A stretch of DNA of 64,000 bases from Kineosporia babensis (lineage in GTDB: Bacteria; Actinomycetota; Actinomycetes; Actinomycetales; Kineosporiaceae), in NCBI RefSeq assembly GCF_021129305.1, contig NZ_JAJOMB010000003.1, forward strand, positions 558,001 to 622,000, read 5' to 3'. The notes under the pieces were generated by a model. The model was not told the origin of the DNA and ran no database searches. It worked only from the letters and a program-made list of their open reading frames with translations. Shown here one piece after another: positions 35,854 through 40,125 of this stretch. Position 1 is the first letter of the stretch. Every line of letters starts with the position of its first letter. A program made the position numbers and the translations under genes.

Positions 35854-36651
35854 TCAGGGCGTGCTCGTCGAAAACTCTTCGCTACTTCTTTCGCCGATCT
35901 GCGGGTTGAACAGCAGATGCACCTGGCCGTTGTGCTCGATGCGTTCCACCCCGATGCCGTACACCCGCTCGATCAGGTCACCGCGGATCACTTCCTCGGC
36001 CGGGCCCTGCCCGACCAGCCGGCCGTGCTCCAGCAGGACCAGGTCGTCGCAGTAGCGGGCCGCCAGGTTCAGGTCGTGCAGCACCACGACCACACTGGTC
36101 CCGAGATCCCGCACGAGCGCCAGGATCTCGTGCTGGTAGCGGATGTCCAGGTGGTTCGTGGGCTCGTCCAGCAGCAGGTGCGTGGCCTGCTGAGCCAGGG
36201 CCCGGGCGATCAGCACCCGCTGCTTCTCGCCCCCGGACAGACCGGCGAAGCTGCGCGGGGCCAGGTGCAGGGCACCGACCCGCTGCAACGAGGTCCAGGC
36301 GATCTCCTCGTCCGCGGTGCTGGTGCGGGCGAAGGTGCCCAGGTGCGGCCCCCGGCCCAGCAGCACCATCTCGGCGACGGTCATCGTGGTCTCGCCGCCG
36401 TTCTCCTGCACCACCACGGCCAGGTGCTGCGCGGTCTGGCGGGCGTTCAGCTGTTCCAGCGGGGTGCCGTCCACGCTCACCGTGCCCGAGGCCGGGCGCA
36501 GCGAGCCGTACAGCAGCCGCAGCAGCGTGGTCTTGCCACTGCCGTTGGGCCCGATCAGGCCCAGCACCCGGCCGCTGCGCGCGCTCAGGCTGACGTCGCG
36601 GACCACCTCGCTCCGGCCGTACGCGAAGCTCAGGCCGGATGCGCTGATCAC
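35854..36651 (-). CDS. FecE-type ABC ATPase for metal-chelate uptake
   Basis: 265 residues. Seen: Walker A GPNGSGKTT near residue 34, signature LSGGEKQRVLIARAL, Walker B LLLDEPTNHLD and H-loop LHDLNLAARYCD, the form used by siderophore, haem and cobalamin importers. Its ATG overlaps the TGA of the binding-protein gene by four bases. Third gene of the permease-binding protein-ATPase operon that starts at 38742 under the Nur-box-like sites. Confidence 0.9.
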   Translation of the reverse strand: MISASGLSFAYGRSEVVRDVSLSARSGRVLGLIGPNGSGKTTLLRLLYGSLRPASGTVSVDGTPLEQLNARQTAQHLAVVVQENGGETTMTVAEMVLLGRGPHLGTFARTSTADEEIAWTSLQRVGALHLAPRSFAGLSGGEKQRVLIARALAQQATHLLLDEPTNHLDIRYQHEILALVRDLGTSVVVVLHDLNLAARYCDDLVLLEHGRLVGQGPAEEVIRGDLIERVYGIGVERIEHNGQVHLLFNPQIGERSSEEFSTSTP

Positions 36652-37628
36652 CGGCCGAACCGCTCTTCGATGGCCTCCAGACCGTCGATGGCCAGCGGGC
36701 CGGGCGGCTCGGTGAAGTTGAACAGCTGCGGCATCACGTCACCGTTCTTGACCGCGGTGAGCTTCTCGGCGCCGGGCAGGTCCGCGATCGAGGCCTCCAC
36801 CGCGGCCGGGTCGCCGTCGGAGTACAGCAGGATCAGCACGTCGGGGTTCAGGCCGATCAGCTTCTCCTGAGTGATCTCGAAAACCCGCTCGTCCACGTCC
36901 CCGAATACGTTCTTGAAGCCCGCCGCCTCCAGCTGAGGCTCGGCCATGCTGCGGTTGCCGTAGGCGTAGGTCACGCCGCCGCCGACGGTCGGGTAGAGCA
37001 CCGCCGCGGTCCGGCCGTCACCCGAAGCCTTGGCCTCCACCGCCGCCAGCCGTTCCTTCAGCGAGCCGACCGCCGCATCCGCGGCCTCGGAGCGGTTGAA
37101 GACCTTGCCGTAGAACTCCATCTGCGAGAACACGTCGTCGAAGCCCGGGTCCTCCAGACCCTCGCCGCACAGGCCCGGCTCCTCTAGTTGCGGGATGCCG
37201 ACCGCCTCCAGCGAGGCCCGGTCCAGGTTGTCCACCTCGCCGAGCACCAGGTCCGGCTCCTGGCTGATCACCACTTCCTTGGAGATCTGCAGGTGCCCGC
37301 TGGTGTCCAGCTTGTCGGTGAGCAGCGGGATCTTGGCCAGGGCGGCGTTCGTCTCGTCGTCGTAGTAGGCCTCGGGGTACTGGCCGGCCCGGGCCGTGAC
37401 GTTGCCCAGCACGCCGAGCTCCGCCAGGTAGCCCACGGAGGCGCTCTTGAGCAGGATCGCCCGCTGCGGCTCGGCCGTGAAGGTCACCTCGGCCCCGCAG
37501 TTCTCGACGGTCAGCGGGTAGGCGCCGCTTGCGCCGGCGCCGGCCTCCACGTCGCTTTCGGCGGAAGAACCGCCGCAGGCAGCGAGCAGAAGCAGGGCAC
37601 CGGTGGCAACGGCAACGGGACGGATCAA
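36648..37628 (-). CDS. Metal-chelate-binding lipoprotein (FecB/BtuF-like)
   Basis: 326 residues. Lipoprotein signal with lipobox LLAACGG (Cys at residue 18). The mature part has the two-lobed class III binding-protein pattern: PQRAILLKSASVGYLAELG, the long connecting helix region around LAAVEAKASG, and VLILLYSDGDPAA near the end. Four further cysteines are seen outside the lipobox in the mature protein (NCGA, GLCGEG). The start is a TTG with TAGGAG seven bases upstream. It should capture a chelated metal for the FecCD-type permease. Operator sequences suggest nickel rather than iron regulation (see the Nur-like boxes). Confidence 0.85.
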   Translation of the reverse strand: MIRPVAVATGALLLLAACGGSSAESDVEAGAGASGAYPLTVENCGAEVTFTAEPQRAILLKSASVGYLAELGVLGNVTARAGQYPEAYYDDETNAALAKIPLLTDKLDTSGHLQISKEVVISQEPDLVLGEVDNLDRASLEAVGIPQLEEPGLCGEGLEDPGFDDVFSQMEFYGKVFNRSEAADAAVGSLKERLAAVEAKASGDGRTAAVLYPTVGGGVTYAYGNRSMAEPQLEAAGFKNVFGDVDERVFEITQEKLIGLNPDVLILLYSDGDPAAVEASIADLPGAEKLTAVKNGDVMPQLFNFTEPPGPLAIDGLEAIEERFGR

Positions 37629-37638
37629 GGTGTGGCTC

Positions 37639-38742
37639 CTAGGCGCTGGTGGCGTGCAGACGGCGGATGAGCACCAGCAGGAACGGCGCTCCGACCAGGG
37701 AGGTGATGATCCCGATCGGAAGTTCCTGCGGCTGCAGAAGGGTGCGGGAGATGGCGTCGGCCCAGATCAGGAAGATCGCACCGAGCAGGGCGGCGACCGG
37801 GACGGCGCGGGCGTGGGTGGCGCCGACCAGGCGGCGGGCGATGTGCGGGATCACCAGGCCGACGAAGCCGATGCTGCCGGAGGCCGCGACCAGCACGCCG
37901 ATGCAAAGCGAGACCAGCACCAGCAGCCGGGTCCGGAACCGGTCGGGTGAGATGCCCAAGGTGTGCGCGGTCTCGTCGCCGATCGCCAGCGCGTCCAGCC
38001 GTCGCCCCCAGATGATCAGCAGGCCCACGGTCAGCATGACCACCGTGCCGACCACGGCCAGCGACGTACCCCAGCGGGCCAGGCCCAAGGAGCCGAGCAG
38101 CCAGAACATCACCGAGCGGGCGCCCTCGGCGGAGTCCGAGGCGAAGATCAGGAAGCTGGTCAGGGCGTAGAGGGCGTAACCCACGGCCACACCGGCCAGC
38201 AGCAGCCGCACGGAAGTGACCCGGCCGGCGCTGCGGGCGATCAGGAACACCAGGAACGAGGCGGCGAGCGCACCCAGGAACGCGGTCAGCGACAGAGCGT
38301 TCTCGCCGAAGCCGGCGCCGAAGCCGAAGAGGATCGCGGCGGCCGCACCGCTCGAGGCACCGGAGTTGATGCCCAGCAGATAGGGGTCGGCCAGCATGTT
38401 GCGGACCATCGCCTGCAGAGCCATCCCGCAGACCGCCAGGCCGGCTCCGACGCAGGCGCCGAGCAGCACCCTCGGCAGGCGGACCTGCCAGACGATCGCG
38501 TCCTGCGGCAGGCTCCAGGTGATCGTTCCCGGGGCGCCGAACAGGTGGTGTCCGATGATCTGGGCAACCGCACCCGGGCTGATCGCCACCGCGCCCACGC
38601 CGACCCCGAGCACGACGCTCAGCAGCAGGAGAACGCCAAGGCCGGTCACCCAGGCCGTGGCCCGACGCCGCTGCCCGGAGAGCCCCAGGTCGGAGACCCG
38701 AGGCTGCAGGGTCCGCCCTTCATCGACGAGCCGCCCCGCCAT
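37639..38742 (-). CDS. FecCD-family permease for metal-chelate uptake
   Basis: 367 residues, about ten membrane segments. Typical FecCD features: LPRVLLGACVGAGLAVCGMALQAMVRNMLADPYLLGINSGA-type region near residue 90 (RLPR...G...Q...NPLA/LADP...G...GA), and GSIGFVGLVIPHIARRLVG near 290. The ATG is chosen because AAGGTGG lies five bases upstream; a GTG 15 bases earlier is an alternative. One permease gene only, so the membrane part is probably a homodimer. First gene of its operon, divergent from the MFS transporter. Confidence 0.88.
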   Translation of the reverse strand: MAGRLVDEGRTLQPRVSDLGLSGQRRRATAWVTGLGVLLLLSVVLGVGVGAVAISPGAVAQIIGHHLFGAPGTITWSLPQDAIVWQVRLPRVLLGACVGAGLAVCGMALQAMVRNMLADPYLLGINSGASSGAAAAILFGFGAGFGENALSLTAFLGALAASFLVFLIARSAGRVTSVRLLLAGVAVGYALYALTSFLIFASDSAEGARSVMFWLLGSLGLARWGTSLAVVGTVVMLTVGLLIIWGRRLDALAIGDETAHTLGISPDRFRTRLLVLVSLCIGVLVAASGSIGFVGLVIPHIARRLVGATHARAVPVAALLGAIFLIWADAISRTLLQPQELPIGIITSLVGAPFLLVLIRRLHATSA

Positions 38743-38791: not shown

Positions 38792-38855
38792 GTTGCGAAG
38801 ATTATGCAATAGAAGCAACGGACGTCGGTGGCCGGGGTTGCCGATTATTTGCAAC
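38792..38855. promoter_or_regulatory. Two Nur-box-like operators in the divergent promoter
   Basis: TTGC-N9-GCAA occurs twice: 38793-38809 (TTGCGAAGATTATGCAA) and 38838-38854 (TTGCCGATTATTTGCAA), centres 45 bp apart. The spacing is exactly that of the nickel-responsive Nur box described in Streptomyces (TTGCaa-N5-ttGCAA). Each copy contains a presumed -10: CATAAT on the minus strand in the first, GATTAT on the plus strand in the second, so both divergent genes would be repressed together. Confidence 0.6.
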
Positions 38856-38865
38856 AGTACGCGTG

Positions 38866-40125
38866 ATGTGCGGTTTTATCGGCGCCTACCGCGCGCTCCC
38901 GCGGCCCAGCCGCCTGCTGATGATCAACATGTTCGGCATCAACCTGGGCTTCTACCTGGTGCTGCCGTTCCTGGCCGGGTACATGGGCGGTCTGGGCTAC
39001 GCGGCTGCCACAATCGGGCTGGTCCTGGCCCTGCGCACGCTCTCCCAGCAGGGCCTGACCCTGTTCAGCGGGGCGGCTGCGGACCGGCTGGGCTGCCGGC
39101 CGATGATCATCCTGGGCTGCGCCTTACGGGTGGTCGCGTTCGGCCTGTTCACTCTGGTCGACTCGCTACCGGGGCTGATCGCCGCGTCGGTGCTGACCGG
39201 CCTGGCCGGGGCGGTGTTCAGCCCAGCAGTGCGGGCCTACCTGATGCAGGACGCCGGTGAGCACCGGGCCGAGGCCTTCGCCGTCCTCAACACCGTCGGG
39301 CACGCCGGGGCGCTGATCGGCCCACTGCTCGGCGCCGCCCTGATCACCGTGGACTTCCGCCTGGTGGCTGCGGTCGCCTGTGTGATCTTCGCCGTACTGA
39401 CCGTCGGCCAGGTGCTGGCTCTGCCCGCCCGGCCGGTCCCCAAACTGGAGACCAGCCTGCTCGGCGGCTGGGCCGAGGTCCTCGGCAACCGCCGTTTCCT
39501 GCTGTTCGCGCTCGGCGGCTCGGTCTATTTCGCCCTGTTCGGCCAGCTGTACCTGGCGCTGCCGGTGGAGGCCCAGCGGGTCTCCGGGGTCGAGGGTGCG
39601 GTCAGTGCCGTGTTCATCGCCTCCACCCTGATCGGCATCTTCGGCTCGGTACAGCTGACCTCGTGGTTCAAGGCCCGGTACAGCGAGGGGACGTCGATGG
39701 CCGGTGGGCTGGCGATGATGGGGCTGGGTTTCGTCCCCCTGGCCGTCGGCGGGCCGTTCCTGGCCACCGCGCCGGCCGGGGAGTGGAACGTCGAGGGAGG
39801 GCTGGCGGTACTACCGATCCTGCTCGGCACGGTGGTGTTCACCGTGGGTATGGCCGTGGCGCAACCGTTCTCGATGACCCTGCTGGCCCAGGTCGGCAGC
39901 GAACGGCTGAGCGGCACCTACTACGGCGTCTTCTACCTGGCCCAGGCCCTGGCCGCCACGGTGGTCAACGTGGCCGTGGGCGAGTTGCTCGACCGGTTTC
40001 CGCACGGCGCCGGCCGAGCCCTGCCCTTCGCGTTCCTGCTTCTGGTCGGTCTGGCCGGCGGCACTCTGATCAGCTGGATGAACCGCACCGGACGGCTGAA
40101 TCAGCGCCCGTCGCTGGACCAGTGA
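38866..40125 (+). CDS. Major facilitator superfamily transporter
   Basis: 419 residues, twelve predicted membrane segments. Seen: INLGFYLVLPFLAGYMGGLGYAAATIGLVL (segments 1-2), the loop GAAADRLGCRP (family DRxGRR motif), and GHAGALIGPLLGAAL in segment 5, a pattern found in drug/proton antiporters. The start is uncertain: ATG at 38866 or GTG at 38863, neither with a Shine-Dalgarno. It shares the Nur-like operator region with the chelate importer, so it may export the metallophore or be a metal-linked exporter. Its last 25 bases overlap the 3' end of the opposing peptidase gene. Confidence 0.8.
   Translation: MCGFIGAYRALPRPSRLLMINMFGINLGFYLVLPFLAGYMGGLGYAAATIGLVLALRTLSQQGLTLFSGAAADRLGCRPMIILGCALRVVAFGLFTLVDSLPGLIAASVLTGLAGAVFSPAVRAYLMQDAGEHRAEAFAVLNTVGHAGALIGPLLGAALITVDFRLVAAVACVIFAVLTVGQVLALPARPVPKLETSLLGGWAEVLGNRRFLLFALGGSVYFALFGQLYLALPVEAQRVSGVEGAVSAVFIASTLIGIFGSVQLTSWFKARYSEGTSMAGGLAMMGLGFVPLAVGGPFLATAPAGEWNVEGGLAVLPILLGTVVFTVGMAVAQPFSMTLLAQVGSERLSGTYYGVFYLAQALAATVVNVAVGELLDRFPHGAGRALPFAFLLLVGLAGGTLISWMNRTGRLNQRPSLDQ

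Follow-up and report, generated by a model that had tools for sequence, protein, structure and literature searches.

The 64-kb window analysed here (the whole 64,000-nucleotide stretch from the Kineosporia babensis genome) contains two divergently oriented transport loci. On the minus strand, a FecCD-type permease (37639..38742; PF01032, E = 7.6e-88), whose likely start is ATG 38742 behind AAGGTGG, is encoded together with a FecB-type lipoprotein substrate-binding protein (36648..37628; PF01497) and an importer ABC ATPase (35854..36651; PF00005). This combination of a FecCD permease, a Peripla_BP_2 lipoprotein and an ABC ATPase in one operon identifies a FecBCD-type (BtuCD-like) importer. On the plus strand, the gene for an MdtH-like MFS transporter (38866..40125; PF07690, E = 1.8e-31) begins at ATG 38866 or GTG 38863, with no clear Shine-Dalgarno sequence at its start. 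An initial annotation made from the sequence had named these flanking genes correctly and had placed two TTGC-N9-GCAA sites 45 bp apart between them. Both sites are exact and lie where it put them, with a start-to-start distance of 45 bp, and they are the sole two matches in the window. The predicted Nur box 1 (38793..38809, minus strand; TTGCGAAGATTATGCAA, in its extended form on the minus strand TATTGCATAATCTTCGCAACA) would be the operator of the fecCD-fecB-ATPase operon. The predicted Nur box 2 (38838..38854, plus strand; TTGCCGATTATTTGCAA) lies nearest the MFS start and is probably the operator of that gene.

The number of motif occurrences was rejected as evidence since it does not exceed chance: when the window was shuffled 100 times, 10 of the shuffled versions contained at least two bare TTGC-N9-GCAA matches, and the 48 genome-wide sites in 9.4 Mb were fewer than those of a reversed-pattern control (140). 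What stands above chance for the two sites is their position, extension and conservation. The inner bases of both boxes partially fit the aa/tt of tTGCaa-N5-ttGCAA. We trained a 21-bp weight matrix solely on the sodF and nikMNQO boxes of six Kineosporia genomes and used it to scan the 64-kb window and individual chosen loci. Box 1 (28.0 bits) and box 2 (21.6 bits) ranked first and second in the window, followed by a third-best score of 14.2 bits. In 200 Markov-shuffled windows the top score was 20.0 bits, and none (0/200) attained the score of box 2. The boxes had also been said to overlap likely -10 elements. By inspection only, -10-like hexamers are found in box 1 (CATAAT, 38801..38806, minus strand) and box 2 (GATTAT, 38843..38848, plus strand), so the overlap is plausible by eye, although a consensus scan of the region returned no full sigma-70 promoter.

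The same box recurs at other genes. In Streptomyces coelicolor, the published Nur box tTGCaa-N5-ttGCAA overlaps the sodF promoter (PMC3919588). In the genome that contains the window, an exact box (TATTGCTAAGTCTTCGCAATA) lies ~13 bp upstream of the start of sodF (Fe/Mn SOD), and another exact box (TATTGCAAAAGTCGTGCAACT) precedes nikM of an ECF operon NikM-PDGLE-Q-O; the scan near sodF and nik genes that had been suggested as a check thus places a box before both. Conservation among congeners was high, with the fecCD box kept as TATTGC-N9-GCAA[CT]A in 6/6 Kineosporia genomes, forming an island within otherwise diverged sequence, the nikM box present in 6/6, and the sodF box in 4/4 sodF-bearing genomes. 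The resemblance to the S. coelicolor Nur regulon (sodF, nikABCDE) comprises the box itself, a ygfZ-adjacent orthologous regulator and the target sodF. Unlike in S. coelicolor, the nickel importers here would be the ECF system NikMNQO and the FecBCD system, and no nikABCDE was noticed among the genes at exact sites of this genome. We found no report of FecBCD as a Nur target in the literature searched. No exact Nur box lies upstream of either of the two sodN (Ni-SOD) genes (L088:5088-5495 and L042). The longest antisense match between the sodF 3' end and either sodN 5' end was 8-9 nt, so the s-SodF mechanism of S. coelicolor is not evident in this genome and a corresponding sodF/sodN antisense pairing was rejected.

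A missing Nur homologue had been named as a finding that would speak against nickel control. One of the five FUR genes in the genome, at C1:31909-32358, is a Nur orthologue located directly upstream of a YgfZ-like gene (YgfZ by eye); nur adjoins ygfZ in S. coelicolor as well (PMC4531530). In the PDB it matched S. coelicolor Nur best (3EYY, E = 1.1e-42), with the next hit at 9.9e-15. In the numbering reportedly used by An et al. 2009, the Ni-site consists of His70/72/126 and the M-site of His33/86/88/90; all seven positions are His in 3EYY. The Ni-site triad H70/H72/H126 is retained in the Nur orthologue and missing from the Zur-, FurA- and CatR-like proteins of the genome. At the M-site, H33, H88 and H90 are retained and H86 is Val in all Kineosporia Nurs, leaving six of the seven positions as His, with a further His one residue before position 86. 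Nur is present in 6/6 Kineosporia genomes, the other five at 81-85% identity. No box was found near nur, and autoregulation was rejected.

The importer clade occurs in 28 of the 395 genomes sampled from the class. In family f45, all six Nur-positive genomes have a box at the orthologous operon (exact in four, a 7/8 match in two), and a seventh genome, G390, has neither Nur nor box. Over 24 genomes, the box and Nur occurred together (14/2 versus 0/8; Fisher p = 6e-5 without correction for kinship). Two f47 genomes are exceptions, having a close Nur and no box within 5.5 kb of fecCD; in a third, G124, the match is weaker (17.3 bits). In family f38, the orthologous importer is instead preceded by TGCGAC-N3-GTCGCA palindromes, apparently a second operator type. 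The strict form of this palindrome has just two genomic sites in each of G223 and G277, one before the importer and one before a CbiM/NikM gene. A Nur-like FUR gene directly adjoins the importer in G250, G286 and G295. In these three genomes and in G183 the best FUR match keeps all three Ni-site histidines, while position 70 is Gln in four other f38 genomes. G384 combines the palindrome with a triad-bearing FUR protein. The importer and a nickel-type ECF transporter thus appear to be under joint control, through one or the other of two distinct operators. A class I SAM methyltransferase gene follows the ATPase gene in most operons of f38, f45, f47, f17 and f12; none was found in Kineosporia at E 1e-15, an empty search result that is itself weak evidence.

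The FecBCD family mostly serves iron-siderophore uptake and a bare TTGC-N9-GCAA is commonplace, so the locus could be read as an iron-siderophore importer under IdeR/DmdR with Nur-like sites by chance. We regard this as extremely improbable, because no iron box occurs within 3 mismatches across the window (the intergenic best is 9/19) and chance does not account for a box kept in all six congeners. The initial annotation had preferred a Nur-type to an IdeR/DmdR box, and that choice is borne out by the absence of an iron box, the Nur orthologue, the boxes shared with sodF and nikMNQO and the conservation in 6/6 congeners. Another Fur-family protein (a Zur, FurA or CatR paralogue) is also very unlikely to be the real regulator, if slightly less so than IdeR/DmdR, given that there are five FUR genes, that the boxes of Fur proteins overlap in form and that one TTGC-N9-GCAA site lies upstream in the furA-katG region (TTGCAATGCACTTGCAA, L024:5050 (G000:C23:39049), 18.7 bits). 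That site was rejected as a conserved target, as none of its type was found near other FUR genes of congeners, whereas the fecCD box tracks Nur across genomes. The Zur-type sites of the genome are TGAGAA-N3-TTCTCA or hybrids, and a Zur-type box fits the intergenic region at just 10/15 positions. Control of the FecBCD operon by Nur is, on this comparative evidence, highly probable.

The AlphaFold model of FecB (pLDDT 85) matched 5CR9, a binding protein of Saccharomonospora viridis, best, with 58% identity in the alignment and TM scores of 0.83/0.93, although 5CR9 is annotated differently, as an Fe3+-hydroxamate transport system. The second structural match, the Jonesia binding protein 4MLZ, adds to the similarity with the putative F420-0 ABC transporter. 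The matches after 5CR9 were to siderophore, heme and B12 binding proteins, which suits a chelate better than a bare ion. Among curated models, those of the putative F420-0 ABC transporter (TIGR03868/03869/03873) came closest to the substrate-binding protein, permease and ATPase, with all three scores below cut-off (98.7/392.4, 294.1/437.35 and 269.7/372.4 bits, respectively); the best E value of the F420-0 substrate-binding model among 14 orthologues was just 1e-32. The window importer differs from that putative transporter in its nickel-type operator. A nickel cargo is indicated by regulation rather than by the sequence itself. With Nur boxes shared with sodF and nikMNQO and conserved across families, the importer falls in the nickel regulon, and it is quite probable that it carries nickel or a nickel-chelate. 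The most likely cargo is a nickel-bound small chelator, taken up by a second, high-affinity route. A precedent is NiuBDE of Helicobacter pylori, an ABC importer of the iron-complex class from a Gram-negative host and under different control. Nickel uptake has been demonstrated for NiuBDE (PMC5140060), so an importer of this kind can import nickel.

The best NCBIfam model for the MFS transporter is PRK11646 MdtH (145.8 bits, below the 469 cut-off). Among 58 genomes searched, a close orthologue was found solely in K. rhizophila, which was also the single hit when the genome collection was scanned with the MFS; the gene adjoins the importer in 2/6 Kineosporia species. Box 2 is confined to the two species that carry the MFS gene, with a 7/8 match of 18.3 bits in K. 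rhizophila, and missing from the four congeners without an adjacent one; most likely it therefore serves the MFS promoter. The importer and box 1 persist without the MFS gene in 4/6 Kineosporia genomes.

Granting Nur control, the cargo and the role of the MFS transporter allow further readings. The importer could carry cobalt, a corrinoid or an F420-0-like cofactor rather than nickel. With an F420-0 transporter as nearest curated family, though below cut-off, a non-metal substrate is conceivable; the permease scores 243 bits against BtuC and 294 bits against the putative F420-0 permease, both sub-cut-off, and for the operon methyltransferase of other families the closest counterpart, although far short of its cut-off, is a corrinoid-associated methyltransferase. 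NikM matches PF01891 CbiM, and CbiM-type proteins may carry cobalt. NiuBDE of H. pylori transports cobalt in addition to nickel (PMC5140060). We nonetheless consider such a cargo improbable, since sodF, a gene that Nur switches in response to nickel, has the same operator as the importer, and the small subunit of the ECF operon is a PDGLE protein, a presumed NikN equivalent. Nickel systems are marked by NikN-type rather than CbiN-type subunits (PMC2667541). A separate alternative, which rivals a metallophore cycle and not Nur control, holds that the MFS protein exports drugs or metabolites and came under Nur through the control region it shares with the importer, with FecBCD scavenging nickel bound to chelators that others make. 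We give this about even chances: the transporter is MdtH-like and adjacent in two of six species only, the importer and its box are retained without it in the other four, and no biosynthesis genes lie by strong boxes. Set against this are the occurrence of box 2 in exactly the two MFS-bearing species and a 42% MFS homologue directly upstream of fecCD in G124, a genome of a different family; both would fit a chelator exporter.

These observations divide the earlier proposal of a nickel-regulated metallophore system, with the MFS protein as chelator exporter. Nickel control of FecBCD is well supported; the metallophore part does not find its counterpart in biosynthesis genes, none of which was seen beside the window locus or the strong boxes, and the exporter role is favoured by box 2 and the G124 neighbourhood and weakened by adjacency in just 2/6 species. 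A self-made nickelophore exported by the MFS transporter is accordingly a doubtful prospect. The same holds for a dedicated actinobacterial nickelophore cycle in which a Nur-controlled MFS protein exports a chelator, FecBCD returns it Ni-loaded and, in the wider family, the operon methyltransferase acts on the chelator or cargo.

As a whole, the locus is best explained by a Nur switch on the importer, including a likely nickel-chelate cargo, a reading we consider probable. When nickel is plentiful, Ni-Nur would bind both boxes and cover the promoter regions of the divergent genes. Under nickel starvation, Nur would leave, and FecCD-FecB-ATPase would be made, plus the MFS transporter where present; the iron SOD and NikMNQO would be produced at the same time. 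In this scheme we infer that Nur binds the boxes and that nickel brings about repression, and likewise the substrate and whatever part the MFS transporter plays. As a matter of routine, FecBCD importers are annotated as serving iron-siderophore uptake, whereas regulation would here assign one widespread clade to nickel, through a different operator in each of two lineages. The comparison suggests that this 'siderophore-type' importer takes up nickel and has so far gone unrecognised in that role. It offers a testable substrate, would extend the Nur regulon by one member and gives a way to approach the question of whether bacteria have dedicated nickel chelators.

Several further sites were noted in the genome. 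A strong Nur-like box (G000:C8:91075-91095 (L124:3076-3096), 24.5 bits) lies ahead of an ABC pair with a heterodimeric exporter fold (627 + 584 aa), 3 kb from sodF. The pair is a candidate for a further Nur target or for a metallophore transporter; that it acts as the exporter in a variant of the nickelophore cycle is a tentative idea with a low probability. No such boxed pair near sodF was seen in G001-G003, and no metallophore synthesis cluster by the pair on C8:70000-130000, a stretch that holds a separate SBP-FecCD import cluster. A paralogous FecBCD operon (L087 (G000:C6:1-12000)), with a FecB of 36% identity to the window FecB, has a Zur-like box (TGAGAATCGTTTGCA), with a FUR gene of Zur-like type close by, and is a probable zinc or zincophore importer. 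At L028:4361 (G000:C14:51360), an ORF whose product begins MSESTAG is immediately preceded by a long near-perfect palindrome (TTACTTGCTTGCATCGGCCATGCAAGCAAGTAA), which resembles the operator of a different regulator.
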